A stretch of DNA of 64,000 nucleotides from Paludibacter propionicigenes WB4. GTDB lineage: Bacteria; Bacteroidota; Bacteroidia; Bacteroidales; Paludibacteraceae. Made by a program: the position numbers and the translations under genes. Location: contig NC_014734.1 in assembly GCF_000183135.1 (NCBI RefSeq), positions 1,674,001-1,738,000 on the forward strand, in the 5' to 3' direction. The first letter of the stretch is position 1. Every line of letters starts with the position of its first letter. Of the stretch, positions 5,955 through 23,806 are shown piece by piece. The notes below the pieces were generated by a model. That model made no database searches. It was not told the origin of the DNA and was given only the letters and a program-made list of their open reading frames with translations.

Positions 5955-5966
5955 TACATAAATGTA
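5955..5966. promoter_or_regulatory. Putative NifA upstream activator element (TACATAAATGTA)
   Basis: A near-palindromic 12-mer identical to the one upstream of nifE and one base different from the perfect palindrome upstream of nifH. It is centred about 63 bp upstream of the putative sigma-54 promoter at 6022. Its role as a NifA site is inferred from recurrence and placement. Confidence 0.5.
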
Positions 5967-6021
5967 TAAAATTTATTTCTTTACAATACACAAATTGCTT
6001 ATAAACTGACAATTACGCCCA

Positions 6022-6037
6022 CGGCACGACATTTGAT
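6022..6037 (+). promoter_or_regulatory. Putative sigma-54 promoter of the DUF683 operon
   Basis: CGGCACGACATTTGAT carries the -24 GGCACG block and, after GG-N10, GA in place of the canonical -12 GC. The same variant occurs upstream of modE, nifH and nifE. The predicted start point near 6048 leaves almost no leader for an ATG at 6051 and favours the ATG at 6072. Confidence 0.55.
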
Positions 6038-6071
6038 TATCTTTAGTATTATGTCTATAAAAAACAATGGT

Positions 6072-6287
6072 ATGACAACAGAAGAAATAAAAGAAATAGA
6101 AAAAGCCGTAACAAAAGCACGCTTTATTCTATCGCAAAAAGCAGGTGCTTTACATGATTTAATAGAAGATCGTTTGCCTGCCGATTACATGGAAATTCCT
6201 GAATATGCCGAAGCCACATACTTGGCATGTAAGGCCTGGGATGAACTAAATAAAAAACTCATTGAATGCAAAAAAGAAATACAATAA
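6072..6287 (+). CDS. DUF683 / CCE_0567-family nitrogen-fixation metalloprotein
   Basis: A 71-residue helical protein. The core, KARFILSQKAGALHDLIEDR then DYMEIPEYAEATYLACKAWDEL, matches the DUF683 pattern known from nif clusters, where members form small helical hairpins that bind metal through conserved acidic and His residues. The frame is open further upstream. I chose the ATG at 6072 because it gives family-typical length and leaves a leader for the sigma-54-like promoter at 6022. It is followed after 36 bp by a nitrogenase-associated ArsC-like gene, forming a two-gene satellite operon 11 kb from nifH. Confidence 0.82.
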   Translation: MTTEEIKEIEKAVTKARFILSQKAGALHDLIEDRLPADYMEIPEYAEATYLACKAWDELNKKLIECKKEIQ

Positions 6288-6323
6288 TCTGATTATTTAT
6301 TCTAACGCTAAAATTCAAAAGAT

Positions 6324-6758
6324 ATGATTATACATTTTTACGAAAAACCAGGCTGTATCAACAATACAAAACAAAAAAAGCTACTGGAAGAAAGTGGTCA
6401 TACAGTAATAGCTCATTCAATACTTACACAATCATGGACTCCTGAAACACTCAGAAAATATTTTGGGAGTCTTTCAATTGTAGATTGGTTTAATCCGGCA
6501 TCCCCAAGAATTAAAAATGGAGAAATCATTCCTGAAAAAATAAATGAAGCAACAGCTTTGCAACACATGGTAAAGGATCCAATACTTATTCGTCGTCCTC
6601 TGATAAACGCGCAAGGTGAACTTATATGTGGATTTGACAATAAAGCTATCGTCAGATTGACCGCCAACAAAGACATACATCATTTACTCACGTGCCCTAA
6701 TCTTGAAAAAGATACTAATTGCAATAACTCAATTTCCAAAATTTCTTTTGATTTATAA
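6324..6758 (+). CDS. Nitrogenase-associated ArsC/Spx-like protein
   Basis: A 144-residue thioredoxin-fold protein of the arsenate reductase-like superfamily. It begins IIHFYEKPGCINNTKQKKLL, and GCINN replaces the usual redox CX5R or CXXC arrangement. Downstream segments WTPETLRKYFG, VDWFNPASPRIK and DPILIRRPLI are typical of the subfamily annotated as nitrogenase-associated protein. The biochemical role is not established. Position behind a DUF683 gene and a nif-type promoter supports a nitrogen-fixation link. The C-terminal 20 residues contain two Cys (around DTNC). Confidence 0.85.
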   Translation: MIIHFYEKPGCINNTKQKKLLEESGHTVIAHSILTQSWTPETLRKYFGSLSIVDWFNPASPRIKNGEIIPEKINEATALQHMVKDPILIRRPLINAQGELICGFDNKAIVRLTANKDIHHLLTCPNLEKDTNCNNSISKISFDL

Positions 6759-6773
6759 ATCTCAATTGTACGC

Positions 6774-6810
6774 AAAAAAAATCCCCGACATTCATATAGA
6801 TTGCCGAGGA
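6774..6810 (-). terminator. Rho-independent terminator of the OmpA-like gene
   Basis: On the minus strand TCCTCGGCA pairs with TGTCGGGGA, including two G-T wobbles, and is followed by eight T. The wobbles pair only in minus-strand RNA, which fixes the direction. It lies about 35 bp after the OmpA-like stop codon. Confidence 0.8.
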
Positions 6811-6844
6811 CTTTTAATATTAAATTCAGAAATTTGTCTACGTC

Positions 6845-8365
6845 TTAGAAATTTACTTTGAACTCTACTCTACGGTTTTTAGCTCTTCCGGCAGCAGTTG
6901 CATTATCAGCAACAGGCACGGTTTGTCCAAAACCTTTAGCCGCTAATTTACCTGCATCAACTCCATTCTTAGTCAAGTATGCTTTAACGGCATCGGCACG
7001 TTTTTGCGACAATGTTAGATTCATTGCAGCAGCACCCTGATTATCTGTATGACCATTGATTTCAAGGTTATAAGATGGATTATCATTCATTACTTTTACT
7101 ACCTTATTCAGGATAGCGAAAGAAGATTTCTTGATAACATCTTTACCTGATTCAAATTGAATTCCCTGCAAAGCCTGAGCAAATATTTTCTTAGTTTCAG
7201 CCTTTACTTCTGGACAACCTTTATTTGCAGCTATACCCGGAACTGTTGGACATTTATCTAAATAATCCGGAACTCCATCGCCATCAGTATCAATCGGACA
7301 ACCACTCGTATCTACTTTTACTCCCTTAGGAGTATCAGGGCACTTATCAATATTATCTGGAACACCATCGCCGTCACTATCTAAAGGACAACCTGAAGCA
7401 TTTACCTTCACACCCTTAGGAGTATTTGGACATTTGTCAAGAGAATCCGGAACACCATCACCATCACTGTCAAGTGGACAACCCGCTGCATCTACCTTTA
7501 TACCTTTAGGGGTATTCGGACATTTGTCAAGGTAATCCGGAACACCATCACCATCACTGTCAAGTGGACAACCATTAGCATCAACAGCTGCACCGGCTGG
7601 TGTGTTTGGACATTTATCAAGATAATCTGCCACGCCATCGCCATCTGTATCAATTGGGCAACCAAAAGCATCAACCTCTACACCTTTAGGAGTATTTGGA
7701 CATTTATCTAATTTGTCAGAAACGCCATCGCCGTCTGCATCTTTAGGAGAACCAAATGAGAAAATCAAACCGATTGAATGTTCAGCAAATTTATCTTTAC
7801 TACCTGATACTACAAAATCACGGTCATCTTTATTAGTTAGATTATACACGAACTTATATTGTAAAGCAAAAGCGTCATTAAATTGGTATTTTAAACCAAC
7901 TCCCAGAGGAACAATAACGTCCGAACCTCCGGTATTAATTCTGTCGGTAACACTTTGCCCATTCTTTGAGTAAGAAGCAAAGCCCACACCTACTTCTACA
8001 AATGGAGATAGCTTGAGTTCTTTACTTAACAAGTACCCATTATTGAATTTGTAATGTAAAGATAAAGTTCCTTCATACTTAGAACCTAACATGTTGGTCA
8101 AGGTGTTTGAAGTAGGGAAGTACCCGTAATTCCCATAGTTACCCTGAAGACTTAAATCAAATGAAGGTGAAATATAAGTAGCAAATGACACCCCTCCAAA
8201 ACCATAAAAAGCTTTGTTAAAGTTGAAAATACCATTACCTAAATCTCCTTTGTATTCGTTCTTTCCAAAGTAAAGACCGATAGCAACTTTATTGTTATCT
8301 GTCTGAGCACCGGCAAACAAAACCATTGATAATAAACCAACCAATAATAAACTCTTTTTTTTCAT
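6845..8365 (-). CDS. OmpA-family outer-membrane protein with thrombospondin type 3 repeats
   Basis: A 506-residue secreted protein. It has a signal peptide (residues 1-20), an N-terminal eight-strand-like beta-barrel (about 21-205), and six calcium-binding thrombospondin type 3 repeats (about 207-385, each built on DxDGDGVxDxxDKCPxTPxG). The C-terminal OmpA domain (about 390-506) has peptidoglycan-binding NGHTDNQGAAAMNLTLS and RRVEF segments. It would anchor the outer membrane to peptidoglycan as a major porin. The tandem TSP3 coding units are near-identical and could recombine. It is monocistronic with a clear terminator. Confidence 0.95.
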   Translation of the reverse strand: MKKKSLLLVGLLSMVLFAGAQTDNNKVAIGLYFGKNEYKGDLGNGIFNFNKAFYGFGGVSFATYISPSFDLSLQGNYGNYGYFPTSNTLTNMLGSKYEGTLSLHYKFNNGYLLSKELKLSPFVEVGVGFASYSKNGQSVTDRINTGGSDVIVPLGVGLKYQFNDAFALQYKFVYNLTNKDDRDFVVSGSKDKFAEHSIGLIFSFGSPKDADGDGVSDKLDKCPNTPKGVEVDAFGCPIDTDGDGVADYLDKCPNTPAGAAVDANGCPLDSDGDGVPDYLDKCPNTPKGIKVDAAGCPLDSDGDGVPDSLDKCPNTPKGVKVNASGCPLDSDGDGVPDNIDKCPDTPKGVKVDTSGCPIDTDGDGVPDYLDKCPTVPGIAANKGCPEVKAETKKIFAQALQGIQFESGKDVIKKSSFAILNKVVKVMNDNPSYNLEINGHTDNQGAAAMNLTLSQKRADAVKAYLTKNGVDAGKLAAKGFGQTVPVADNATAAGRAKNRRVEFKVNF

Positions 8366-8886
8366 GTGTAATTAATTTAACAGTTTGTAATTTATTTCAA
8401 AATACTGATTCAGCTCAGTATTCTTATTATAAAAGCATCATTAGGAATTGATTTAAGACAAATCAATAAAGTATTCTCTAGCTAGAAGCAATTGGCGTAA
8501 AACACGATATTTAAACTTTTATCGTAATAGTAAATACTACAATTCACAACAAAAGACCGGGCAAATAAACAATAAAATTCAGGCTCGTACTACAATACAA
8601 ATATCATTGTATATCTGTCAGTTAAAACAACAATTGACTCTGCAAGTTTTCATTCCATCGCACTACAATTATTTTGAATAAAAAAATACAATTTAAATAT
8701 ATAATAGCAAAAGTCTACAAAAAGTTGTGAAACATATCAGTTTTAACTTTCCAACTAATTCTTTCTGGATTAAAATAGGTTAAATTCGAATTAATTTATT
8801 GAGCTTAAAAACAAGTTTTACGTCTAAAACGTTAGGTGTTTAATGAATTAAAATTTATAAGAACAGAAAAACAACTAAATTGCCTC
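8366..8886. other. Long AT-rich intergenic region between divergent genes
   Basis: About 520 bp between the minus-strand OmpA-like gene and plus-strand sucC. It must hold both promoters and probably a leader for the abundant porin mRNA. I see no coding frame, hairpin terminator or recognisable RNA, and no clear TTTG/TAnnTTTG pair. Confidence 0.5.
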
Positions 8887-10041
8887 ATGAAAATTCACGA
8901 ATATCAAGCCAGACAATTGTTCAGGAAATACGGAATACCAGTTCCGGAAGATGTATTATGTTATACTGTAAGCGAAGTAGAAAAAGCCGCTAAGGATTTA
9001 AACCGAATGGTAGTAGTTAAAGCTCAGGTTTTAGTAGGTGGAAGAGGTAAAGCAGGTGGAGTTAAGCTTGCCAGAAATGTAGAGGATGCTGTTTCTGCAG
9101 CAAAACAGATTTTGGGAATGGATATAAAGGGATATAAAGTTGAAAAGGTTTTGGTAGCCGATGCAGTAGACATCTCTAAAGAATTTTATGTCGGACTAAT
9201 TAACGACAGGAATAGCAAGACGGTAACTTTAATGGCAAGCTCAGAAGGAGGAGTTGAAATTGAAGAAGTTGCAAAAGAAAACCCTGAGAAGATTATTAAA
9301 TTTCATATTAATCCTCTTACTGGATTACTTGACTACCAGGCAAGGGATATAGCGTTACAGCTTTTTGGAGAAATCAAAACTGCCCAAAAGGCTGCTTCTA
9401 TTTTCAAGAAGCTATATAAATTGTACGTAGAAACAGATGCAACTATTGCTGAAATAAATCCATTGGTGCTTACTCCAGACAACGAGGTACTTGCCATAGA
9501 TGGAAAAATGAATTTTGATGATAATGCACTTTTCCGTCAGCCTGAGATTTTGGCAATGCGAGAACCCGATGAAGATGAATTAGTGGAAATTGATGCTCAT
9601 AGCAAAGGATTATCTTATATCCGCTTGGATGGAAATATAGGTTGCATGGTCAATGGAGCTGGATTGGCAATGGCTACTATGGATATGATTAAATTGTATG
9701 GTGGAGAACCAGCTAATTTTCTGGATATTGGCGGTAGTTCAAGTCCGCAAAAAGTGATTGACGCCATGAACATTCTGCTAAACGACAAACATGTAAAAGC
9801 CGTAATGATCAATATTTTTGGTGGAATAACACGATGCGACGATGTAGCGAAAGGGCTTATAAAGGCTATGGAGGTGATATCAACAGATATACCGATTGTA
9901 GTACGACTCTCAGGAACGAATGCAGCAGAAGGACTTGAGTTACTAAAACAAACCAATCTTCCTACAGTAAGTTCAATGAGCGAAGCTGCTCAGCTAGCAA
10001 TAGAACTTAGCAACAACCTTATTTTTACACCACATAAATAA
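8887..10041 (+). CDS. sucC: Succinyl-CoA synthetase beta subunit
   Basis: A 384-residue ADP/GDP-forming succinate-CoA ligase beta subunit. The ATP-grasp domain starts [16 protein letters not shown], with [19 protein letters not shown] binding nucleotide, and the C-terminal ligase domain contains [15 protein letters not shown]. The frame extends 17 codons upstream, but the ATG at 8887 gives the invariant MKIHEYQ start. It pairs with SucD to interconvert succinyl-CoA and succinate with substrate-level phosphorylation. In fermentative Bacteroidales it can also feed the succinate-propionate route (inference). The sucD gene follows after 7 bp. Confidence 0.96.
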
Positions 10042-10048
10042 TATAGAC

Positions 10049-10924
10049 ATGAGCATATTAGTCAATAAAAACACAAAATTATTAGTTCAGGGAATAACCG
10101 GTAGAGATGGTAAATTTCATACCGGAAAAATGAGAGAATACGGAACAAATGTAGTGGCAGGAGTTTCTCCGGGAAAAGAAGGGGTGGTTCTTGATGGTGT
10201 ACCAGTTTTTAATTCTGTTGCCAGTGCAGTTGAAGCTACGGGAGCAAATACTTCGATAATATTTGTACCTGCTGCATTTGCGGCCGATGCCATTCTCGAG
10301 GCTTCTGAGGCCGGAATTGAACTTGTGATCGCCATCAGCGAAGGTCTACCAATACAAGACATGATTCGGATAACTCCCATTCTAAAGCAGAACGGAACAC
10401 TTCTAATTGGGCCCAATTGCCCGGGATTAATTACTCCGGGTGAATCTCTGGTCGGCATTTTACCTGCCAACATCTTCAAAAAAGGGAATATCGGATTTAT
10501 ATCACGAAGTGGAACTTTGACTTATGAAGTTGTAAATCTACTGACTGAAAACGATTTTGGTCAAACAACTTGCGTAGGAATTGGTGGAGACCCTGTTGCC
10601 GGATTATATTTTATTGATCTATTGGAACGATTTGAAAATGATCCTGAAACAATAGCAGTAGTAGTTATCGGCGAAATTGGTGGAGATGCAGAAGAACAAG
10701 CAGCTCAGTTTATAGCCGATAAAATGACAAAACCTGTTGTGGCATTTATAGCCGGCCAAACAGCTCCTCCCGGAAAAAGGATGGGACATGCCGGAGCTAT
10801 TATTTCAAGCGGATCCGGAACAGCAGCTGAAAAAATTGCAGCTTTTAATAAAGCAGGAGTACCAGTGGCGAAAGAACCAAATGAAATTCCTGAATTATTA
10901 AGACAGAAACTACAAAACAGGTAA
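10049..10924 (+). CDS. sucD: Succinyl-CoA synthetase alpha subunit
   Basis: A 291-residue alpha subunit of normal length. It has a CoA-binding Rossmann domain ([14 protein letters not shown] near residue 13), the [12 protein letters not shown] segment, and the phosphohistidine loop [17 protein letters not shown] with the catalytic His near residue 250. It is phosphorylated on that His during turnover and forms a heteromer with SucC. It lies 7 bp after sucC and is followed by a strong inverted repeat separating it from the converging molbindin gene. Confidence 0.97.
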
Positions 10925-10995
10925 TATCTTCAGTTACTCCTTTATATTATTAGCAATATTTATCTGACTGGCTTTAGCATTTAAAAGCCAAACTT

Positions 10996-11040
10996 ATATT
11001 ACGGTGAAGTCGCTTATTTATAGCGGTTTCACCGTAATAT
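10996..11040. terminator. Long inverted repeat between convergent sucD and molbindin genes
   Basis: ATATTACGGTGAA and TTCACCGTAATAT form a perfect 13-bp stem with a second internal stem (GTCGC/TAGCG-like). No T-run follows on either strand beyond ATATTTAT, so it is a plausible bidirectional terminator but not a textbook one. Confidence 0.6.
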
Positions 11041-11053
11041 ATTTATGTGGATA

Positions 11054-11473
11054 TTAATCTACCGCAAGAATAACAGAGGATGCCTTAACTATTGCACTCG
11101 CTTCCACACCCAAAGCTAACTCTAGTGAAGCAACAGATGATTTAGTAATTACCGCAGTAATAGTGAAGCCACTTCCCAAATCTATTGAAACTTCATCATT
11201 AACAGACCCTTCAATAATTGAGGATATCTTGCCTGTCAATACATTGCGAGCGCTTATTTTTTTCACATCGATTCCAATTATTACGCTCGATGATTTTATA
11301 AGCGCATAAGCTGTATCTCCTTTTTTCAAATCCAGACTTTTTATTGCACCATTTGTTACCACTGATACAATTTCAGTCCTACCAGGTAAAGTAAGTATAA
11401 CTTCAGCATTTATTGCTCCTTCGGTTATAGAAGTTACCTGCCCTTTCAGTTGGTTTCTTGTACTTAATTTCAT
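11054..11473 (-). CDS. Molbindin: two tandem Mop/TOBE domains, stand-alone
   Basis: A 139-residue protein made only of two Mop repeats: MKLSTRNQLKGQVTSITEGAIN to about residue 67, then ISARNVLTGKISSIIEGSVN to the end. Each has the SxRNxLxGxVxxIxxGxxxxEV pattern that binds molybdate or tungstate at subunit interfaces. A TTG five codons upstream is in frame, but the ATG at 11473 gives the standard N-terminus. Neither the neighbouring ModE nor ModC carries Mop domains, so this protein may supply the sensing or storage function for both (inference). It is transcribed divergently from modE. Confidence 0.88.
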   Translation of the reverse strand: MKLSTRNQLKGQVTSITEGAINAEVILTLPGRTEIVSVVTNGAIKSLDLKKGDTAYALIKSSSVIIGIDVKKISARNVLTGKISSIIEGSVNDEVSIDLGSGFTITAVITKSSVASLELALGVEASAIVKASSVILAVD

Positions 11474-11777
11474 GTTTTCTAATTTCAATATTTACAAAAG
11501 TATAATTCGAGTTCAAATATACAGTAAATTCATTTATATTTAAGCACATTTATACTAAAAACAGCACTTTATTTCCATTTTGCGTTCAAATTAGATATTT
11601 ATGTATTATTTTTACACGATAAAAGCTCAATTAAAGCTCAAAAAGACAATAACACTTTGGAGAATATATAGATTACTTTACGAGTAGGTTTATATAATCG
11701 AACAGAGTAATGAATTACAGAATAGCAATATTAAAAACGTACAGCAAAAATGTATTAAAAATAGCGACCTAAATTCT

Positions 11778-11789
11778 TACCATTATGTA
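11778..11789. promoter_or_regulatory. Weak match to the nif upstream element
   Basis: TACCATTATGTA followed by GGATT resembles TACATTAATGTA plus GGATT upstream of nifH, with the central bases shifted. It is centred about 103 bp upstream of the sigma-54-like site at 11885. Taken alone it would not be called. Confidence 0.3.
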
Positions 11790-11884
11790 GGATTATTATA
11801 AAAACACTGCATTCACGTAATTTTTGAAGTTTATTTTTTAAGCTTACAAAACACAAATTGCTGATTAGATTATATTTACGTTAT

Positions 11885-11900
11885 TGGCATGCAAATTGAA
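11885..11900 (+). promoter_or_regulatory. Putative sigma-54 promoter upstream of modE
   Basis: TGGCATGCAAATTGAA has the GG-N10-GA spacing and sequence style of the putative promoters of nifH, nifE and the DUF683 operon. It would leave a leader of about 65 nt before the modE ATG. This suggests modE is co-regulated with nif (inference). Confidence 0.45.
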
Positions 11901-11975
11901 AATGAGTATCTGAATTTTCAATGTTCAGAGTGCACCTGATCAATGAAAAGAAAATTATAAAAAAACAGTAAGGCA

Positions 11976-12329
11976 ATGAAGAATCCGTCATTTAATATGG
12001 CTGCAGAGCTTTCATTTTATCGCGAAGGTGAAATTTTTCTCAGCAATTTACAAATCCGACTAATGAAGCAAGTTATTCTGGACGGATCAATTCATGCAGC
12101 TGCCAAAAATCTAAAAATGTCCTATCAACACGCTTGGCATCTACTAGACAAGGTGAACCGATTATCGCCACTACCAGTAGTCATAAGACAAAAAGGAGGA
12201 CGAGATGGAGGAGGCTGCGTTGTTAGCAACTATGGACTGAAACTAATCAGGACATTTGAAGCTAAGGAAATTGCTTTGAAGGAATTCTTGGCCAATAACA
12301 AGGCTGATTTTGACACCTGTTTTTTTTAA
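11976..12329 (+). CDS. modE: ModE-type molybdate regulator, DNA-binding domain only
   Basis: A 117-residue winged-helix protein matching the N-terminal HTH domain of ModE: GEIFLSNLQIRLMKQVILDGSIHAAA, then the recognition-helix region LKMSYQHAWHLLDKVNRLS, and the wing with GGRDGGGCVVSNYGLKLI. Classical ModE is about 260 residues with two C-terminal Mop domains; here they are absent. A separate di-Mop protein is encoded divergently 500 bp away. It would bind operators in the mod or nif region; whether it responds to molybdate alone is unknown. It precedes an outer-membrane barrel gene and modABC. Confidence 0.88.
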   Translation: MKNPSFNMAAELSFYREGEIFLSNLQIRLMKQVILDGSIHAAAKNLKMSYQHAWHLLDKVNRLSPLPVVIRQKGGRDGGGCVVSNYGLKLIRTFEAKEIALKEFLANNKADFDTCFF

Positions 12330-12456
12330 CTATCGATATACCCGCAATGGAATATCGTTTTTTTTGAAACTCGTTATTCTTTTAGTATTATAACGAAATT
12401 TCTCTAGTTATTCATTTACGTGTTCAAAATTGAATATCGTATAAAACTAAATTAGT

Positions 12457-13740
12457 ATGAAAAAAGAAATTATTAAAGCTATATTACTTGCTGCAATTGC
12501 AATTCCGCAATTTACAACTGCCCAGAACGTAGTCATTGATGGAGAAATACGTCCCAGAGTAGAATATCGGGATGGGTTAAGCAAACCGTTACCCGAAACA
12601 ACCGATCCAGGCGTATCGGCCATCCAACGAACCCGATTAGGAATGACTTTTACCAGTGGATTACTGAACACTCAGATTACACTGCAAGATTCAAGAACTT
12701 TCGGACAAAATCCTAATGCTTCGAGTGATGCAACAGTAGGTATATTTGAAGCATGGGCAGAAATGCTCCTAATGCCCGGCGGATCGTTCAAAATAGGAAG
12801 GCAGGCAATTAAATATGATGATAACAGATTATTTTCAGCTTCGGCCTGGAGTAATACCGGGACTTCGCATGACATGGCATTATTTAAGTATTGTGTAAAT
12901 GACTTTCAGGGACATATTGGAGTCGCGTATAATAATAACAATATAATCTCATCAGAAACATATTATACCCCAAAATCAAACTATCGTTACATGGGATATA
13001 TCTGGTTGACAAAAGATTTAGTCAAAGGATTAAATTTGAGCTTGATAGGCGTTGATGAAGGTGTGCAGGACACAACAGGAACAAAAGCAGGAGTAAACTA
13101 TATGAAAACCAAGATGAATCATGCATACACTTACGGAGGTAATTTAAAATACTCTGACGAAAATTCACCGATTGGTGTATTTGCCACAGCTTATTTTCAG
13201 TCGGGTAAGAGTGCAACTAAATCTACTTTGGCGGGTAAATTATTAGCCATTAAAGTTGATTATAAGTTCTCGAATATTATCGTCGCCAATGTAGGAACCG
13301 ATTATCTATCCGGAGACAATACAACCGATGGAACTCAGTCAAATTTTAAAAAATTGTATGGTACCGATCACAGTTTTAATGGTGCAATGGAGTATTGGAA
13401 AACACCGCTAAATCAGGGATTGTTGGATTATTATGCAGGAGTAACGGGTAAAATCAACAAGGCATTAAGCATAGACGGAACATTTCACCTCTTTAATTCC
13501 GAGTTCTCGGGAAAAAATTCTAAAGGAATAGCATTTGGCAAAGATTTAGGTTCCGAGTTGGATATAATTGTCAATTACAAGCTAAATTCATGGACAAATA
13601 TTCAAGGTGGGTGGTGTACATATTTTAGCAACAATAATACACTTGCAGCAAAGAGCATTACAACTTCCGCCACCATTCCGGCTGTGAGAACTCCACAATG
13701 GGCGTACATAATGTTCACAATTAAACCAAAGTTCCTATAG
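12457..13740 (+). CDS. Outer-membrane beta-barrel of the alginate-export/porin type in the mod locus
   Basis: A 427-residue protein with a signal peptide (about residues 1-22, ending TTAQ) and alternating beta-strand pattern throughout, ending in a C-terminal aromatic strand (YIMFTIKPKFL). Early segments GEIRPRVEYRDG, IQRTRLGMTF and IGRQAIKYDDNRLF fit the alginate_exp-like porin group of Bacteroidota. The name does not imply alginate transport. Lying between modE and modA, it probably passes molybdate or another oxyanion across the outer membrane (inference from context). Confidence 0.8.
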   Translation: MKKEIIKAILLAAIAIPQFTTAQNVVIDGEIRPRVEYRDGLSKPLPETTDPGVSAIQRTRLGMTFTSGLLNTQITLQDSRTFGQNPNASSDATVGIFEAWAEMLLMPGGSFKIGRQAIKYDDNRLFSASAWSNTGTSHDMALFKYCVNDFQGHIGVAYNNNNIISSETYYTPKSNYRYMGYIWLTKDLVKGLNLSLIGVDEGVQDTTGTKAGVNYMKTKMNHAYTYGGNLKYSDENSPIGVFATAYFQSGKSATKSTLAGKLLAIKVDYKFSNIIVANVGTDYLSGDNTTDGTQSNFKKLYGTDHSFNGAMEYWKTPLNQGLLDYYAGVTGKINKALSIDGTFHLFNSEFSGKNSKGIAFGKDLGSELDIIVNYKLNSWTNIQGGWCTYFSNNNTLAAKSITTSATIPAVRTPQWAYIMFTIKPKFL

Positions 13741-13742
13741 AT

Positions 13743-13858: not shown

Positions 13859-13868
13859 AATACACATT

Positions 13869-15371: not shown

Positions 15372-15372
15372 T

Positions 15373-16074: not shown

Positions 16075-16104
16075 TTCAAAGCGTATAAGTCGAAGATATA
16101 TAAA

Positions 16105-16143
16105 CAAAAAACCGACCTGATATTCTAATCAGGTCGGTTTTTT
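16105..16143. terminator. Bidirectional rho-independent terminator after modC
   Basis: ACCGACCTGAT pairs perfectly with ATCAGGTCGGT, with A6 before and T6 after, so it works on both strands. It ends modABC and the convergent secreted-protein gene. Confidence 0.92.
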
Positions 16144-16162
16144 AAGTATAAATGCTATTTGA

Positions 16163-16519
16163 TTATTTTTGACGTTTCAAAGTCATCTCCATGTCACCCA
16201 TTGGAGAATCAATCATTTTCAGAATGATAGTATCGTCATCTTTTAATGTACCAGCATATTTCATTGCCTGGTCACCAAAAGCCATTTCAAAACTTATATT
16301 TTTACCATCCACTTTTACGTTAGTTACAGGTAAGTCGCCATTTGGCATTTTCATAGAGCCTGTTACCTTTTCACCTTCTGTTTTGAAAACATAAGTCAGT
16401 TCAAACTCATTACCATCTGGGGTTTTTACTTTTGTTAGCCATGTACCGTCAAAACCTGCAGCATAAGTAACAGCTGAAATCATTAAAAATAGGACTGTTG
16501 ATAAGATTGTTTTTTTCAT
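16163..16519 (-). CDS. Small secreted beta-rich protein of unknown function
   Basis: A 118-residue protein with a signal peptide (MKKTILSTVLFLMISAVTYA) and a beta-rich body with FDGTWLTKVKTPDG and VTGSMKMPNGD segments, resembling small lipocalin-like or META-like Bacteroidota secreted proteins. The frame is open 23 codons further upstream, but the ATG at 16519 gives the canonical signal peptide. It lies alone between modC and the nifH control region on the opposite strand. No nif-specific role can be argued. Confidence 0.72.
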   Translation of the reverse strand: MKKTILSTVLFLMISAVTYAAGFDGTWLTKVKTPDGNEFELTYVFKTEGEKVTGSMKMPNGDLPVTNVKVDGKNISFEMAFGDQAMKYAGTLKDDDTIILKMIDSPMGDMEMTLKRQK

Positions 16520-16709
16520 TGGTTGATTTTTTTGAATTAATATTAGTTTAATGAAAAACAAAGGTATATAAAAAATTAAATCTGACAAGTGAAATAGATT
16601 ATTTCGGAAATTCCATCGACATATTCGGTTTTTTTATCGACAAAACCGGAGTTTGTGTTTTACTTACATGCTTTTTTATAAAGCCCTATAATCCGCATTT
16701 TTCCGAGCC

Positions 16710-16840
16710 GCAAGTCTGCAGCTAGCTTTCCCAACATGGGGAAACCAGTTGCACATTTGCAGCAATCTTTCACATACTTAGGAAACCTTGTCGCAAGTTT
16801 GCAGGAGACATTCCCCGATATGGGAAGCGTTACTGCAATA
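16710..16840. repeat. Degenerate 42-bp tandem repeat (three copies) upstream of nifH
   Basis: Units begin GCAAGTCTGCAG (16710), GCACATTTGCAG (16751) and GCAAGTTTGCAG (16793), with a fourth partial start at 16835. Spacing is 41, 42 and 42 bp. Each has a shared later segment with GGAAACC or GGGAAGC. A 67-codon minus-strand frame crosses it with 14-residue periodicity (FPKYVKD, FPMLGK), but I do not call it a gene. Confidence 0.65.
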
Positions 16841-16941
16841 AAGAGACTTTCATAGATTCTCATGGATTAATTTTAAAAAATACCTCTCATCAAAAAACAG
16901 CATTACGATACCATCAATCTTCATCCCATTCGACGTTACCT

Positions 16942-17003
16942 TTCCTACCTTTTAAGTATAATTTGATACATTAATGTAGGATTTAGAGCAATTCCTACGA
17001 AAT
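16942..17003. promoter_or_regulatory. nifH upstream enhancer block with palindrome TACATTAATGTA
   Basis: TTCCTAC (16942), then TTTTAAGTA, then the perfect palindrome TACATTAATGTA (16967-16978), then GGATTT and AATTCCTACGAA. The block aligns base for base in spacing with one upstream of nifE (TTCCTAC at 23748, palindrome at 23773). The palindrome is about 143 bp upstream of the promoter. No canonical TGT-N10-ACA NifA site was found between 16900 and 17114. Confidence 0.6.
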
Positions 17004-17113
17004 GGCTTTTTCAATAAATGAGATTTTATCTATCAAAATTCAAAAAAATATAGCACTGAATTACAACGGATTAAACCTTTATAAAATATGAAAAATAGCT
17101 ATCTATTTGTTAA

Positions 17114-17130
17114 TGGCACGGTAAATGAAT
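17114..17130 (+). promoter_or_regulatory. Putative sigma-54 promoter of nifH operon
   Basis: TGGCACGGTAAATGAAT matches TGGCACG-N4-TTGCW except that the -12 block reads ATGAA, so the invariant GC is GA. The flanking TGTTAA and TAAGG are also conserved at nifE. The predicted leader is about 65 nt. Confidence 0.65.
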
Positions 17131-17190
17131 AAGGCTAGTCAGGTTATTCAAAAAAGCCTCAACAAACAGAAACATTAGTAATTCATTTAA

Positions 17191-18027
<837 letters not shown>

Positions 18028-18129
18028 TACACTGGTAAACAAGCTGACGAGGGGATATCGTTATCAGCTCGTCACTTGTTTCTCTTTTTGAAATTGGAAA
18101 TTAGCTATTACCCTAAAAAATTAAACATT

Positions 18130-18453
18130 ATGTATTTATTAAGAGCAATTGTTCGTCCTGAGAAATCAACTGTAGTTATGAAAGCATTATTCGATGCAGG
18201 CTTTCCGGCAATTACTAAACTAGCTGTATTCGGCCGTGGTAAACAACGTGGTATCAAAGTAGGAAACGTAACATACGATGAGTTACCTAAAGATTTACTT
18301 ATGATGGTAATTCCTGAAAAAGATAAAGATTTTGTAATTGAAACAATAATATTGGCTGCCCGCTCCGGTGAAAAAGGACAGTTTGGTGATGGAAAGATCT
18401 TCGTTACCCCTGTTGAAGAAAGTTACACAATATCAAGCGGCAAAAAAGACTAA
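18130..18453 (+). CDS. nifI1: NifI1, nitrogenase-specific PII protein
   Basis: A 107-residue GlnB-family protein. It starts MYLLRAIVRPEKSTVVMKALFDAGF, has a T-loop around KQRGIKVGNVTYDELPKDLL, and a C-terminal GDGKIFVTPVEESYTIS. The frame extends 18 codons upstream, but the ATG at 18130 gives the family start. In methanogens NifI1 and NifI2 form a complex that blocks NifDK when fixed nitrogen is plentiful and is released by 2-oxoglutarate and ATP. Position between nifH and nifD is diagnostic. Confidence 0.95.
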   Translation: MYLLRAIVRPEKSTVVMKALFDAGFPAITKLAVFGRGKQRGIKVGNVTYDELPKDLLMMVIPEKDKDFVIETIILAARSGEKGQFGDGKIFVTPVEESYTISSGKKD

Positions 18454-18456
18454 GAA

Positions 18457-18555
18457 AACCCCTAAATCCCCTAAAGGGGACTTTGGAAAAGAAACACTTA
18501 GAATTATAGTATAAATCTCGACCTCTCTTATTCCCCTTTAGGGGTTAGGGGTCTA
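18457..18555. repeat. Paired inverted G/C-box repeat element between nifI1 and nifI2
   Basis: The left arm has CCCCTAAATCCCCTAAAGGG and the right arm CCCCTTTAGGGGTTAGGGG, separated by about 50 bp of AT-rich sequence. It fills nearly the whole intergenic gap. Confidence 0.85.
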
Positions 18556-18567
18556 AACAAATAGATT

Positions 18568-18933
18568 ATGAAATTAATATTAGCAATGATACGCATTGAC
18601 AAGATGGCCGCTACCAAACTTGCTCTTTCAGATGTCGGTCTGCCTTCGTTTACTGCTATGCCGGTTTTAGGTCGCGGAAAAGGGAAAGGCGGATTTGAAA
18701 AAGCTGTAGGTCTGGACGAGGATCAAAAAGAGCTCATTATCGAGATGCCACGTTTAAAATCCAAACGAATGATTACCCTGGTTGTAACCGACGATAAAAA
18801 AGAATTAGCAGTGGAAACTCTTATCAAAACAAACCAGACAGGTAAAAGCGGAGATGGAAAGATATTTATCCTCCCGGCCAGCGATTCTTACCGGGTTCGT
18901 ACAGGAGAAAACGGAGATATTACATTAGACTAA
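18568..18933 (+). CDS. nifI2: NifI2, nitrogenase-specific PII protein
   Basis: A 121-residue GlnB-family protein of the NifI2 branch. It starts MKLILAMIRIDKMAATKLAL, has a Gly/Lys-rich T-loop start (GRGKGKGGFEKAVG), a conserved KSKRMITLVV strand and a GDGKIFILPASDSYRVRTGE end. It should act with NifI1 in 2-oxoglutarate-sensitive switch-off of nitrogenase (known for archaeal homologues, inferred here). It is separated from nifI1 by a paired repeat element and from nifD by an AT-rich inverted repeat. Confidence 0.95.
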   Translation: MKLILAMIRIDKMAATKLALSDVGLPSFTAMPVLGRGKGKGGFEKAVGLDEDQKELIIEMPRLKSKRMITLVVTDDKKELAVETLIKTNQTGKSGDGKIFILPASDSYRVRTGENGDITLD

Positions 18934-18935
18934 TT

Positions 18936-19008
18936 GATAATTCACAATTCATAATGCATAATTAAGCATTGACATTATGAATTATACATTATGCATTATA
19001 AATTATAA
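18936..19008. repeat. AT-rich inverted repeat between nifI2 and nifD
   Basis: AATTCATAATGCATAATTAA and the inverted ATGAATTATACATTATGC lie 10-20 bp apart, so the gap can fold into a long weak hairpin. It is unlike the G/C-box elements elsewhere in the operon. It has no T-run and is probably not a terminator. Confidence 0.6.
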
Positions 19009-19013
19009 AAATT

Positions 19014-20648
19014 ATGGGAAAGACATTAATAGATGAACTGGAAATGAGTAAGTTTACCGAGGAGGTAGTTAAAGCTTACCCGAAGAAGGTTGCCAAGAAA
19101 AGAAGTAAATCGATTGTAATAAACGATCCGGACTCTATTCCCCAAATCCAATCGAACGTACGTACCATCCCGGGTATTATTACTCAACGCGGTTGTACAT
19201 ATGCAGGTTGTAAAGGAGTGGTTCTCGGTCCTACAAGAGATATAGTGAACATTACACATGGACCCATCGGATGCGGTTTTTATTCATGGTTAACACGTCG
19301 AAATCAAACACGTGCCGACAAACCCGAAATGGATAACTTCATTCCGTATACATTCTCTACCGACATGCAGGATTCAAATATCGTGTTCGGTGGTGAAGAA
19401 AAACTAAAAGTGGCTATTCGTGAAGCCGTAGAATTATTTAACCCAAAGGGTATTGCCATTTTCTCTACTTGTCCTGTAGGACTGATTGGTGACGATGTTC
19501 ACCGTGTAGCCCGCCAGATGAAAGAAGAATTCCCCGGAGTAAATATTTTCGGTTTCTCTTGCGAAGGCTACCGCGGAGTATCGCAATCGGCCGGTCACCA
19601 CATTGCAAACAACGGTTTATACAAACACCTTATCGGACGTAATGACAATCCGACACGTAAGTATAAATATGCTGTAAACGTATTGGGAGAGTACAATATT
19701 GGTGGTGATGCCTTTGTTATTGAAGATTTGTTCGAGAGAATAGGGGTTGATATTATCGCTACCATGTCAGGAAACTCTACACTGGAGCAATTTGAAACAG
19801 CACACACTGCAGATTTCAGTTTAGTGATGTGCCACCGTTCTATCAACTATGTAGCTGAAATGCTTGAGACATCGTTTGGTATTCCTTGGGCTAAAGCAAA
19901 CTTTATCGGCGCTGAAGCTACAGCTAAAACGCTTCGCAAAGTAGGACAGTATTTTGGCGATCAGGAATTAATTGACAGAATAGAAGAGGTAATTGCCGAT
20001 GAAATGAAAGCTGTAAATGCAGCCATTGAAAAAGCAAGAGCAAAGACAGAAGGAAAAACTGCTATGATGTTCGTAGGAGGTTCTCGCGCTCACCATTATC
20101 AGGAGCTATTTAGCGAACTTGGCATGGAAACGCTGGTGGCAGGTTACGAATTCGGACACCGCGATGACTACGAAGGTCGCCGGGTAATTCCAACCATACA
20201 AATTGATGCTGACAGTCGTAACATTGAGGAAATCACTGTATATCCTGACCCAACACGCTACAAACCACGTAAAACCGAAGAAGAGCTTGCTCAGCTGAGA
20301 GAAGCATTTGACATTGAGTTCAACGAATACAAAGGTATGATGAACGATATGAAAAAAGGAACATTGGTAATTGACGATTTGAGCCATTACGAAATGGAGA
20401 AACTTATCGAACTCTATAAGCCTGATGTTTTCTGCGCCGGTATCAAAGAAAAATATGTGGTTCAAAAAATGGGTATCCCAATGAAACAGCTCCACAACTA
20501 CGATAATGGTGGTCCATATGCAGCTTTCGAAGGTGCAATTAACTTCTACAAGGACATTGAAATGATTGCATGCAGCACCATTTTCAAACAAATGAAAGCT
20601 CCTTGGGAACGTGAAGAGGTGTTAGAAGCGGAATACGTTTTCAATTGA
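19014..20648 (+). CDS. nifD: Nitrogenase molybdenum-iron protein alpha chain
   Basis: A 544-residue NifD. P-cluster ligands are Cys61, Cys87 and Cys153. FeMo-cofactor ligands are Cys273 (VMCHRSINY) and His494 (QLHNYDNGGPY), and His195 lies in SAGHHIAN. It is about 50 residues longer than Azotobacter NifD because of an insertion at about residues 385-440, typical of the clostridial/Chlorobi anaerobe group. Together with NifK it forms the catalytic heterotetramer. All ligands present support a functional Mo-nitrogenase rather than a Nif-like paralogue. Confidence 0.98.
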   Translation: MGKTLIDELEMSKFTEEVVKAYPKKVAKKRSKSIVINDPDSIPQIQSNVRTIPGIITQRGCTYAGCKGVVLGPTRDIVNITHGPIGCGFYSWLTRRNQTRADKPEMDNFIPYTFSTDMQDSNIVFGGEEKLKVAIREAVELFNPKGIAIFSTCPVGLIGDDVHRVARQMKEEFPGVNIFGFSCEGYRGVSQSAGHHIANNGLYKHLIGRNDNPTRKYKYAVNVLGEYNIGGDAFVIEDLFERIGVDIIATMSGNSTLEQFETAHTADFSLVMCHRSINYVAEMLETSFGIPWAKANFIGAEATAKTLRKVGQYFGDQELIDRIEEVIADEMKAVNAAIEKARAKTEGKTAMMFVGGSRAHHYQELFSELGMETLVAGYEFGHRDDYEGRRVIPTIQIDADSRNIEEITVYPDPTRYKPRKTEEELAQLREAFDIEFNEYKGMMNDMKKGTLVIDDLSHYEMEKLIELYKPDVFCAGIKEKYVVQKMGIPMKQLHNYDNGGPYAAFEGAINFYKDIEMIACSTIFKQMKAPWEREEVLEAEYVFN

Positions 20649-20650
20649 TG

Positions 20651-20766
20651 ACCCCAAACCCCTAAAGGGGACTTAAAGACGTAGTTTCTGAAAATGTTCA
20701 GATAGAAATTATAAATATAAACTAAAGAGCCGAAGTAACTCTGTTCCCCTTTAGGGGTTAGGGGTG
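20651..20766. repeat. Paired inverted G/C-box repeat element between nifD and nifK
   Basis: The left arm is CCCCAAACCCCTAAAGGGGA followed by CTTAAAGAC; the right arm is GAAGTAACT followed by CCCCTTTAGGGGTTAGGGGT. The outer flanks match those of the element at 28315, so these two are copies of the same unit. Confidence 0.88.
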
Positions 20767-20786
20767 GTTCTTAAATTCTAAAGATT

Positions 20787-22166
20787 ATGTTACTTAGACA
20801 TACAACAGCAAAAGAAATAGACAGAAAGGCGTTGACGATCAACCCTGCCAAAACCTGTCAGCCAGTAGGCGCAATGTATGCTGCATTAGGCATCCATGGA
20901 TGCTTGCCTCACAGTCACGGTTCACAAGGATGTTGTTCGTATCACCGTAGTGCGCTTTCGCGTCACTTCCGCGAACCCATCATGGCTGGAACTAGCTCTT
21001 TCTCAGAAGGATCTTCAGTATTTGGTGGATCGGCTAACCTGGTTCAGGCAATCGACACCATGTTTACAATCTACAAACCCGACGTTATTGCAGTTCACAC
21101 AACCTGTTTATCCGAAACAATTGGTGATGACTTGACTCAAATCATTTCCAAAGCTGCCGACGATGGTTGCGTACCTGAAGGTAAACAAGTGATTTACTGT
21201 AATACCCCTAGTTATGTGGGAACACATGTTACAGGATACTCCAATCAGGTGGCTGCATTTATCAAGTTCTTTTCTACTGCAACTCCAAAAAAACGCAACG
21301 TTATTAATATCGCTGCAGGATGGATGGAACCTTCGGATCAACGTGAAATCAAACGTCTTACTTCGGTAATGGAAGCACGCACTATATTGTTTCCTGACTT
21401 TACAGACGTGTTGGACGCTCCACTCGATGGACATTATAAAATGTATCCAAACGGAGGAACAACCATAGCCGATATGAAACTGACCGGGGATAGCAAGTTT
21501 ACATTGGGACTTGGTCAGTCATGTACCGAGGATGCATGTATCAAACTGGAAAACAAGTGTAAAGTAAAATTCGAATTATTGGATATTCCTATCGGATTCA
21601 AAGCTACAGACCGTTTCCTGATGTCGCTTAGCCGTCATGCCAATGTGCCGATTCCTGAAAGTTTATCGGACGAACGCGGAAGATTAATCGATTTAATTTC
21701 TGACAGTTCGAAATATCTTTACGGAAAACGTGTTGCTCTTTTCGGAGACCCTGATACTTTAATTCCGTTGACTGAATTCCTGGTAAGTATGGATATGAAA
21801 CCTGTTTACATTGTAACCGGTACTCCAAGCAAATACTTTACCGAAAGAATGACTGAGATTCTGAAAGATATACCGGAAGCTAAATTTAAGAGTGGAGAAC
21901 AGGCAGATATGTTCCAACTTCACCAATGGATCAAACAAGAAGGTGTTGACTTATTAATGGGTAACACGTATGGCAAATACATAGCCCGCGACGAGGATCT
22001 ACCTTTCGTTCGCATCGGTTTCCCGATTGCCGACCGTCCCGGACACAACTACTTTGCTAAAACAGGTTACGAAGGAGGTGCTAATCTGGTAAAACAAATT
22101 ATGGATGCATTCCTTGATCATTTCGACCGTACTTGTCTGGAAGAAAAGGTAGAATGGCAATTGTAA
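20787..22166 (+). CDS. nifK: Nitrogenase molybdenum-iron protein beta chain
   Basis: A 459-residue NifK. P-cluster ligands are Cys24 (KTCQPVG), Cys49 (SQGCCSYH) and Cys107 (TTCLSETIGDD). It lacks the N-terminal extension of about 50 residues found in proteobacterial NifK, a feature paired with the inserted NifD of the anaerobe group. It ends the first nif operon; a strong hairpin terminator lies about 145 bp downstream. Separation from nifD by a repeat element suggests tolerance of this insertion within the operon. Confidence 0.98.
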   Translation: MLLRHTTAKEIDRKALTINPAKTCQPVGAMYAALGIHGCLPHSHGSQGCCSYHRSALSRHFREPIMAGTSSFSEGSSVFGGSANLVQAIDTMFTIYKPDVIAVHTTCLSETIGDDLTQIISKAADDGCVPEGKQVIYCNTPSYVGTHVTGYSNQVAAFIKFFSTATPKKRNVINIAAGWMEPSDQREIKRLTSVMEARTILFPDFTDVLDAPLDGHYKMYPNGGTTIADMKLTGDSKFTLGLGQSCTEDACIKLENKCKVKFELLDIPIGFKATDRFLMSLSRHANVPIPESLSDERGRLIDLISDSSKYLYGKRVALFGDPDTLIPLTEFLVSMDMKPVYIVTGTPSKYFTERMTEILKDIPEAKFKSGEQADMFQLHQWIKQEGVDLLMGNTYGKYIARDEDLPFVRIGFPIADRPGHNYFAKTGYEGGANLVKQIMDAFLDHFDRTCLEEKVEWQL

Positions 22167-22192
22167 GCGCATCAAATTCACATTAGTCCGAT

Positions 22193-22245
22193 CGACGCAT
22201 GACTCCAGTCCTTCATTAAGACGCATGACACCAGTCGGAGTGACT
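22193..22245. repeat. Short direct and inverted repeats after nifK
   Basis: GACGCATGACTCCAGTC (22195) and GACGCATGACACCAGTC (22221) are direct repeats 26 bp apart, the second extended by an inverted GGAGTGAC. Function is unknown. It looks like another intergenic repeat type. Confidence 0.55.
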
Positions 22246-22309
22246 ATTATTGTTGACATCAATATAGATTTGTCCAAATCTATAATTGCGATCAGATGAG
22301 AAAATTCAT

Positions 22310-22348
22310 AGACGGTTTTACTTTGAAGGTAAAACCGTCTGTTTTTTT
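22310..22348 (+). terminator. Rho-independent terminator of nifH-I1-I2-D-K
   Basis: AGACGGTTTTAC pairs perfectly with GTAAAACCGTCT, loop of 7, followed by G and T7. It is the first strong terminator after nifH, which supports a five-gene transcript. Confidence 0.93.
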
Positions 22349-22410
22349 AAAGAAAAAGACACAAATTGCATGTGCCTTCTTTACGCTATGCCGAACAGAG
22401 CATTACCCCA

Positions 22411-22959
22411 TCACTCAGACATTATTCTATTTGCTTTTTTATCATAGTAAATACTCTTAACTGAATCTCTTTTGATATATACACCTTCACGATATAAATC
22501 AGATAAGGCATTGATACTATTTAGATTATCAAGTTCAACTCCTTTATATAAATATTGAAGAGCAAGTTTTAATGATTTATCGTCAATTTTACCATATAGT
22601 TGTTTGTATTTATAATTTGAAATTAATGAGTGATAAACTCTGAAATAAGCCTCCTTATATCCGTATTTATTAGCCATTATAATATCATAAAGTAATGTTT
22701 CACCAGAGTATTTGTCTTCGAAATGCTTTATATGTAATTTTTCATAGGCTATAGTATCACCTTTAACCAACACTCTTTTCTGAAGTTCATCATCAGACTC
22801 ATTAACTTGATTTCCAGTTTTTGTACTTTCTAACTTTTTTATCAATATCAAGGTTTTATATTTACTGTATTTATATCCAGTAATAAACCCGACAATTAAA
22901 ATGATAATCATCAACATAGATTTTCTAAAGTAATGATTGTTTAAGAAGATATTTTTCAT
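22411..22959 (-). CDS. Membrane-anchored Sel1-like protein, possible immunity protein
   Basis: A 182-residue protein with one N-terminal transmembrane helix (about residues 14-33, MLMIIILIVGFITGYKYS), a charged linker, and C-terminal Sel1/TPR-like helices (ALQYLYKGVELDNLNSINAL, then a second partial unit). The ATG is 3 bp after the stop of a broken upstream frame resembling a toxin C-terminus (22963-23154). That coupling and the Sel1-like fold suggest an orphan immunity protein, but neither family is recognised with certainty. It interrupts the nif region on the opposite strand and has AT-rich codon use typical of transferred cargo. Confidence 0.55.
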   Translation of the reverse strand: MKNIFLNNHYFRKSMLMIIILIVGFITGYKYSKYKTLILIKKLESTKTGNQVNESDDELQKRVLVKGDTIAYEKLHIKHFEDKYSGETLLYDIIMANKYGYKEAYFRVYHSLISNYKYKQLYGKIDDKSLKLALQYLYKGVELDNLNSINALSDLYREGVYIKRDSVKSIYYDKKANRIMSE

Positions 22960-22962
22960 ATA

Positions 22963-23154
22963 TCATTTTTTTAATTGTATATGTATCTTTGGAGCATTAC
23001 CTGTTTCTCGCGCTAACAAACCCCATTCCTCCGGATCTATCTTATTTCTTTGCAGAATATTTCTGACTGGTTGTTGAAATTTGTTATCCCAACTTTTGTA
23101 TTCTTCTGATTTGAAATTAGGAATTATTCGATCTTGACCTCCGGCAAACCTTTT
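22963..23154 (-). pseudogene. Remnant C-terminal coding fragment, possible polymorphic-toxin tail
   Basis: An open stretch of 63 codons with no plausible start, bounded upstream by an in-frame stop. It reads FAGGQDRIIPNFKSEEYKSW, then ILQRNKIDPEEWGLLARETG, and ends in IQLKK just before the stop, 3 bp from the following ATG. Acidic/basic helical composition and coupling to the downstream gene suggest the end of a secreted toxin whose body was lost. The family is not identified. Confidence 0.45.
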
Positions 23155-23335
23155 CTACCCCTGTTCTCCGTTGTGTATAATTTCTTACTCTGCTGTTCGG
23201 CGAATGGCTTCAGCCTTCGTCGCAACTAGAAGGAAAGCTCCTGCTGTCCACATTGTTTGCAAATATAACTATTTTCCCAACAAAACGGAATACAACTTAC
23301 TTGTAACCTTTTCAATGTGAATATGCAAGATCACT

Positions 23336-23650
23336 TTGTATACTGTCGAGCAGGCTTTGTATGTTGTCGAGATCACTTTGTATACTGTTGTGATGGCTAT
23401 GAATGTTGTTGAGATAACTTTGTATTGTGTCGAGACGACTTTGTATGTTGTCGAGCAGGCATGGTATACTGTTGAGATAGCTATGTATGTTGTCGAGATG
23501 ACTTTGTACATTGTCGAGCAGGCATGGTATACTGTCGAGATAACTATGTATGTTGTCGAGCAGGCATTGTATACTGTTGAGATGACTTTGTATACTGTCG
23601 AGCGGACTATGTATGTTGTCGAGGGGGTTTTGTATGTTGTCGAGCAGGGT
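23336..23650. repeat. 21-bp minisatellite, 15 perfect-length copies
   Basis: Fifteen consecutive 21-bp units with no insertion or deletion. The core is TTGTATGTTGTCGAG or TTGTATACTGTCGAG, followed by a variable hexamer (CAGGCA, ATAACT, ATGACT and others). Because 21 is divisible by 3 and stops are lacking, one plus frame and two minus frames are open, giving heptad peptides (LYVVEQA on plus; LDNIHSY or STTYKVI on minus). It lies upstream of the nifE enhancer block. Confidence 0.95.
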
Positions 23651-23747
23651 ACTGTGCAAAAATCTGTGTAAACTCTATTTTTTCGAGCGGATGATCCCCG
23701 ATGTAATCCCGTCCTGAAACACTGCGATGGTTTCGCATCAATACGCA

Positions 23748-23806
23748 TTCCTACATTTTAAGTACATTTTCCTACATAAATGTACGATTTTGGAAATTCC
23801 GGCAAG
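23748..23806. promoter_or_regulatory. nifE upstream enhancer block with TACATAAATGTA
   Basis: TTCCTAC at 23748, then TTTTAAGTA, then TACATAAATGTA at 23773-23784, then CGATTT and AAATTCC. It matches the nifH block in order and spacing. The 12-mer centre is about 144 bp upstream of the sigma-54-like promoter, against 143 bp at nifH. No TGT-N10-ACA site was found between 23700 and 23920. Confidence 0.6.

Follow-up and report, generated by a model that had tools for sequence, protein, structure and literature searches.

TAC-N6-GTA, an AnfA-type inverted repeat, as the probable NifA enhancer of nitrogenase promoters in Paludibacter propionicigenes and beyond the Bacteroidota

A 64,000-nt stretch of the Paludibacter propionicigenes WB4 genome, referred to here as the window, carries nitrogen fixation (nif) genes together with a gene for a NifA-like enhancer-binding protein, and it raises the question of which DNA element this activator reads. 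The upstream activator sequence of proteobacterial NifA is TGT-N10-ACA (PMC4999443). The original prediction placed a 12-mer, TACATWAATGTA, in that role at three places in the window, with a weaker form at a fourth, and named it a candidate NifA binding site of Bacteroidota. Comparative evidence supports a nif enhancer in place of TGT-N10-ACA, presumably used by the NifA-like protein, and at the same time corrects the form and widens the range of phyla. The element is the inverted repeat CCTAC-N6-GTAGG with a TAC/GTA core, of which the 12-mer is merely one spelling. Most likely it serves as the enhancer for a clade of NifA proteins whose recognition helix is distinct, and the NifA encoded in the window would bind it. 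Comparison between genomes shows how the element reads, that it is conserved, where it lies with respect to sigma-54 promoters, which genes it precedes, and that it goes with one NifA clade.

All four predicted sites were recovered where they had been placed, and all have the form TAC-N6-GTA (4/4), that is, an AnfA-type inverted repeat. The copy 5' of nifH (16967..16978; TACATTAATGTA, TAC-ATTAAT-GTA, in the context GATACATTAATGTAGG) is a perfect palindrome. Those 5' of nifE (23773..23784) and of a Rop-like gene (PF05082, the DUF683 gene; 5955..5966) share the sequence TACATAAATGTA, or TAC-ATAAAT-GTA, and the modE copy (11778..11789) reads TACCATTATGTA, or TAC-CATTAT-GTA. Each site is followed by a sigma-54-like -24/-12 box in which GA replaces GC at -12. 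These promoters lie on the + strand at 17114..17128 for nifH (TGGCACGGTAAATGA), 23921..23935 for nifE (TGGCACGATAAATGA), 11885..11899 for modE (TGGCATGCAAATTGA), and 6022..6036 for the Rop-like gene (CGGCACGACATTTGA). Measured from the midpoint of the element, the GG of the -24 box is 142.5, 143.5, 102.5, and 62.5 bp away, respectively, the first two in agreement with the 143 and 144 bp originally given. This is the arrangement of a sigma-54 upstream activator sequence, a repeat resembling a protein-binding site about 60-230 bp 5' of a -24/-12 promoter. The nifH gene occupies 17203..18027 (+; Fer4_NifH profile match, E 5.5e-128), and the Rop-like gene 6054..6287 (+), within an open frame at 6033-6287.

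At nifH and nifE, the site belongs to a longer block. The distance from the start of TTCCTAC to the element is exactly 25 bp at both promoters (16942 and 23748), as had been reported, and the block TTCCTACNTTTTAAGTA, with at most two mismatches, occurs within the window at these two places only. It corresponds to a degenerate distal second site that keeps the CCTAC half-site (16942..16958 and 23748..23764, both +). At nifH, its spacer is 7 and its centre lies about 20.5 bp from that of the proximal site. A weak second site, TACGTTTTTGTA (5924..5935; matrix score 7.0), precedes the Rop-like one by 31 bp. The reported absence of the proteobacterial motif holds as well, with none of the window's 15 copies of TGT-N10-ACA (17.8 expected) lying 5' of nifH or nifE. 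Within the window, the exact 12-mer is matched four times at three places, as the palindromic copy is counted on both strands; 100 window shuffles gave a mean of 0.05 matches and never reached four. A 21-bp tandem repeat array (23286-23686) lies directly 5' of the nifE enhancer.

The form of the element was derived from dyad scans of nifH upstream regions. All 1,088 trimer dyads (XYZ-Nn-X'Y'Z', spacers 0-16) were compared with the expectation from first-order Markov shuffles, and group membership was taken from record titles. The Bacteroidota set comprised 31 regions, namely 21 named loci, the P. propionicigenes genome, and 9 of 13 full-length loci from genus relatives; L023, L024, and L026 were dropped as the same contigs as L067, L066, and L072, and L020 as having the site and spacing of L018. 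The truncated L031 was left out, the 12-mer filter removed no region, and L145 stood in no group. In this set, TAC-N6-GTA ranked first of all dyads, with 30/31 regions against 1.96 expected. TGT-N10-ACA remained at chance (3/31; 3.45 expected). The other top dyads, CTA-N8-TAG, CCT-N10-AGG, ACA-N4-TGT, and CAT-N2-ATG, are pieces of one repeat, for which the base matrix gives the consensus CCTACA-N4-TGTAGG. The exact 12-mer was present in just 9/31 regions and was rejected as the consensus.

The same scan applied to other phyla does not sustain a restriction to Bacteroidota. As a positive control, 17 proteobacterial regions, from plasmid records hand-picked out of 243 (L200 outside the count and the Treponema plasmid L202 unused), placed TGT-N10-ACA first (15/17; 1.02 expected), and TAC-N6-GTA was absent (0/17; 0.26 expected). 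A second set held 29 regions from the best 30 loci, one of them our own, in a search with matches in 83 of 395 genomes that was not a random draw. Here, TAC-N6-GTA was found in 28/29 regions (0.81 expected), TGT-N10-ACA in 2/29 (1.43 expected), and the exact 12-mer in 2/29. One family contributed 26 of these regions, and we take it to be green sulfur bacteria because the listed sites and positions of L227 match those of Chlorobium sp. N1. In 400-bp upstream regions, the element was present in 4/5 Verrucomicrobia and 5/6 spirochaetes, and TAC-N6-GTA also ranked first among 25 regions of other phyla (11/25; 0.67 expected). The 33 regions from sulfate reducers and their kin were mixed, with ACA-N4-TGT in 19 (2.00 expected), TAC-N6-GTA in 15 (1.09), often with different flanks, and TGT-N10-ACA in 9 (1.99).

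Some sulfate-reducer nifH regions, L119, L122, and L132 among them, contain repeats of the GCGACA-N4-TGTCGC type, whose half-site is that of many proteobacterial NifA sites (TGTCG-N6-CGACA) in the opposite order. From CGACA-N4-TGTCG in some sulfate reducers and TGTCG-N6-CGACA in many Proteobacteria, a reversal of half-site order can be drawn. A tentative extension, which we hold somewhat less probable than its contrary, is that TAC-N6-GTA (core ACA-N4-TGT) represents the general enhancer type of NifA, AnfA, and VnfA across phyla, and that TGT-N10-ACA is a derived proteobacterial form with its half-sites in opposite order.

Position and conservation relative to the promoter point in the same direction as the dyad counts. 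Across 14 genus regions (L017-L019, L021, L022, L025, L027-L030, L066, L067, L069, and L072), the site lies 146-148 bp before TGGCAC in 13, and at 159 bp in L021. In an alignment of 12 of them (L021, being off the anchor, and L072 left out), mean pairwise identity was 0.77 for the 16-bp site and 0.88 for the promoter, against 0.31 in two measured flanks and 0.40 immediately 5' of the promoter. Without the six TAC/GTA alignment columns, the site still scores about 0.64, as derived from the column values. Often, a further copy or a half-site stands 20-40 bp 5' of the site, and the tandem spacings frequently seen in Bacteroidota are 20, 30, 40, and 100 bp. In the nifH regions L225-L253, many genomes of the inferred green sulfur family have paired sites with a spacing of 28 bp, which precede a canonical TGGCAC...TTGC promoter by about 168 and 196 bp. 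Since this second set often shows 28 bp, a strict helical-turn spacing rule was dropped. The genus nifH promoters resemble the four window promoters in having TGA instead of TTGC at -12; the second set mostly has TTGC.

A base matrix built from 39 sites in 29 regions of other Bacteroidota, those of genus relatives among them, places the four nif-linked sites among the top five matches of the window. The modE site, described originally as the weaker one, is the best of all (20.9), followed by nifE (20.2), nifH (19.4), a match at 36150 (15.8), the Rop-like site (15.1), and then nothing above 8.0. The match at 36150 was rejected as a site; it has no TAC and falls inside an outer-membrane-protein frame (35784-36452). 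Over 30 window shuffles, the mean number of matches at or above the five scores was 0.03-0.17, and the mean best score was 12.7.

On the scale of the genome (3,685,504 bp in one contig), the exact 12-mer occurs at four places, upstream of nifH, nifE, the DUF683 gene, and glnK-amtB, the last of which had not been used to define the element. These locations are striking, whereas the count (six matches at four places) is level with the seven of a reversed control pattern. The notion that the 12-mer is rarer than chance was therefore rejected, and the evidence rests on location and not on number. A composite scan combining a sigma-54 box with TAC-N6-GTA in two distance ranges returned 13 + 5 = 18 matches, compared with 2 + 3 = 5 for the reversed pattern. 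Ten of the 18, including one that scores 13.4 with the matrix, fall inside open frames of 184-708 codons. The remaining eight represent six promoters, those of nifH, nifE, the Rop-like gene, modE, and two solute-binding-protein genes of one family, PF13343 (L148:1717-2781 and L033:11020-12156). One of the latter lies beside the iron-only nitrogenase (anf) cluster and has a site that overlaps an open frame of 100 codons; the other, at 596 kb, has two sites 30 bp apart (scores 13.0 and 16.0). Both may be uptake genes of the nif regulon. A looser search for TGCCA with TAC-N6-GTA was uninformative (107 matches vs 54 in the control).

In relatives, a gene-set scan at a matrix score of at least 12 found nifE preceded by a site in L066, L069, and L072, and by a weak one (12.1) in L073. 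The modE genes of L066 and L069 are likewise preceded by a site, and in L070 and L073 one lies in the interval that separates modE from nifA. Predicted targets in P. propionicigenes thus comprise nifH, nifE, the Rop-like gene, modE, glnK-amtB, and the two solute-binding-protein genes.

The proposed binder is the NifA-like protein encoded at 31982..33532 (-), with GAF (PF01590), sigma-54 AAA+ (PF00158), and Fis-type HTH_8 (PF02954) domains and a GSFTGA loop. TIGR01817 is its top scorer among the NCBIfam matches listed. Two cysteines (residues 5 and 12) stand at its extreme N-terminus ahead of the GAF domain. Across 21 genus relatives, NifA and nifH co-occur (7 with both, 4 discordant, 10 with neither; p 0.008). 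Other strong sigma-54 activators follow different distributions: one is found in 33/36 genomes (our own included), another in 10/36 and in only 1/9 nifH-positive genus relatives, a further one is a 383-aa frame in which no HTH was seen by eye after the AAA+ domain, and another match is a 186-aa fragment. The anf-linked activator was seen only in the P. propionicigenes genome at a threshold of E<=1e-130.

The HTH_8 domain of the window NifA (residues 469-507; 32012..32128, -) has a recognition helix of the type TERMMGIRIKKYEI. Proteobacterial NifA helices read, for example, TPRQVGYAIRR, and those of Bacteroidota TERMMGIRIKK and close variants. In a tree of 44 proteins (L080, L126, and L134 dropped as short or containing X), each helix type occupies one side of a branch: the Q/Y type (support 100/99), the type with neither residue (support 94/92), and a small third group (support 92/86). 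In nifH regions sorted by these clades, TAC-N6-GTA accompanies the clade of the window NifA in 16/18 cases and the third group in 0/4.

For P. propionicigenes, acetylene reduction and the presence of both nif and anf genes have been reported (PMC4356463). Its own anfH (L032), a gene of the Fe-only nitrogenase, has no TAC-N6-GTA upstream and shows instead two VnfA-like GTAC-N6-GWWC sites at -267 and -236 relative to the start codon, 31 bp apart, with a sigma-54 box at -76. Among 12 other anfH-like upstream regions, TAC-N6-GTA was found in one (0.48 expected). In this genome, it is apparently the outer half-site bases, CCTAC versus GTAC, that distinguish the two nitrogenases. A clean split between nif and anf promoters as a general rule is broken by the Dysgonamonadaceae locus L068, discussed below.

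Activation would proceed as follows. Each half-site would be read by one C-terminal helix-turn-helix of a NifA dimer, and two adjacent dimers may help the AAA+ ring to assemble. The intervening DNA would then loop, so that the ring meets sigma-54 RNA polymerase at TGGCAC-N5-WTGA and opens the promoter through ATP hydrolysis. Binding, dimerisation, and looping are established for sigma-54 activators in general, and we infer them for the window NifA.

Several observations weigh against assigning the element to this protein. The window NifA scores 502.8 with TIGR01817, below the cut-off of 528.85. Co-occurrence is imperfect, with nifH but no NifA found in G015 and G018 and the converse in G017 and G019; the latter two are positive for the glnK site described below and are possibly incomplete assemblies. 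Sulfate reducers with another helix type (RQMGYR, on the Q/Y side) carry TAC-N6-GTA in 5/13 cases, so the helix is not the sole determinant, and L115 and L145, within the clade of the window NifA, have no exact site between -310 and -60. The link between helix and site could reflect shared descent, both following the NifA tree. In L074, titled P. jiangxiensis and outside the 14 genus regions, only degenerate copies precede nifH, 150, 170, and 280 bp before the promoter (scores 10.2, 9.5, and 11.4). One of the 30 shuffles reached 22.5, higher than every real site. The glnK-amtB copy stands just 63 bp before the start codon and has no good -12 box. Finally, the anf operon of L068 is preceded by TAC-N6-GTA (9268-9279; score 14.3), 209 bp 5' of a nifH-like gene; this operon also contains an AnfD-like frame truncated by the contig end and two P-II genes.

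The L068 site bears on the strongest competing explanation, namely that a second NifA-like activator encoded beside anfHDGK (L033:9288-10898) is AnfA-like and binds the element as alphaproteobacterial AnfA does. Because an anf operon carries the site, this alternative gained and the assignment to the window NifA lost some probability. The published AnfA consensus is TAC-N6-GTA, the anf-linked protein shares the helix class and the large clade of the window NifA, and the solute-binding-protein gene next to anf bears a site. Nevertheless, none of the 21 genus relatives has a second match at E<=1e-130, none of the genus relatives searched for NifH has a second NifH at E<=1e-60, and all 13 full-length nifH regions among them retain TAC-N6-GTA. 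The VnfA-like sites of the native anfH and the near-chance count at other anfH-like genes argue in the same sense. We consider an AnfA-like binder improbable.

A slightly less probable account is that the palindrome serves a general regulator of nitrogen status that does not belong to the sigma-54 activators, with NifA binding elsewhere. The placement of the glnK-amtB copy would suit such a regulator, whereas the six predicted promoters combine the site with a sigma-54 box, and the higher-ranked other dyads in Bacteroidota are all parts of one repeat. The distribution of glnK sites also favours a link to NifA, if weakly. Of 36 genomes, amtB was matched in 17 and 13 could be used; G013 and G015 (short upstream DNA), G014 (no glnK recognised), and G018 (nifH without NifA; no site) were left out. 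TAC-N6-GTA lies about 190-245 bp 5' of glnK in 5/8 NifA-positive genomes (G000, G005, G007, G017, and G019) and in 0/5 NifA-negative ones (G008, G016, G037, G041, and G043; p 0.044). A reading of the palindrome without a protein, as a hairpin or as a chance product of A+T-rich sequence, is very improbable, despite the perfect symmetry of the nifH copy and the control-level count of the 12-mer. For the innermost pair, the complementary fraction is 0.25 in Bacteroidota (40 sites; 0.45 expected) and 0.12 in the second set (41 sites; 0.36 expected). Such lack of covariation speaks against a hairpin, which was rejected on this ground, and the positional and gene-set evidence also speaks against this reading. 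The window NifA appears to be the most plausible reader of the repeat.

The letters of the skeleton are not new, being those of the published alphaproteobacterial AnfA site. At anfH of Rhodobacter capsulatus, AnfA binds TAC-N6-GTA, with two copies per promoter before a sigma-54-dependent nitrogenase operon (PMC7294313). There, the site serves AnfA and the Fe-only nitrogenase, and NifA uses TGT-N10-ACA (PMC7294313). In P. propionicigenes, by contrast, it precedes Mo-nitrogenase genes and has CC/GG flanks. In Azotobacter vinelandii, the VnfA1 motif GT(T/A)C-N6-GTAC agrees in spacing and in the inner TAC/GTA, and most promoters have two motifs (PMC9542535). It differs in its outer G/C base, and the native anfH has this VnfA form and not the nif form. 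The proteobacterial NifA site is likewise an inverted repeat 5' of a nif promoter of the -24/-12 type, and its reader is an activator with GAF, AAA+, and HTH domains, but its half-sites and spacing are different and it is no more frequent than chance in the nifH regions of Bacteroidota. For Desulfovibrio vulgaris DVUA0143, a presumed nitrogenase regulator whose N-terminal domain is similar to AnfA/VnfA, a candidate motif was described before nitrogenase operons in five Desulfovibrionales (PMC4641369). The NifA-like protein of D. vulgaris DP4, its presumed ortholog, has an RQMGYR helix, and the 400 bp 5' of nifH in that strain (L200) contained no copy of the three dyads sought there. In the literature searched, which most subscription journals lie outside, no NifA site was found in the accessible text for Bacteroidota, Chlorobiota, Verrucomicrobiota, or Spirochaetota, nor any report of TAC-N6-GTA before Mo-nitrogenase genes across phyla.

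Judged from sequence, the repeat looks like a conserved working enhancer whose scope extends well past the Bacteroidota. A textbook search for TGT-N10-ACA finds nothing above chance 5' of Bacteroidota nifH, whereas the corrected element allows nif targets to be predicted from sequence in this phylum and in the inferred green sulfur family. The CCTAC and GTAC half-sites hint at how nif and anf promoters may be discriminated within one genome, without constituting a general rule, as L068 illustrates. The element also provides a direct route to the study of specificity change in the NifA recognition helix. Transfer of nif clusters between phyla would be affected, since promoter and activator must match.

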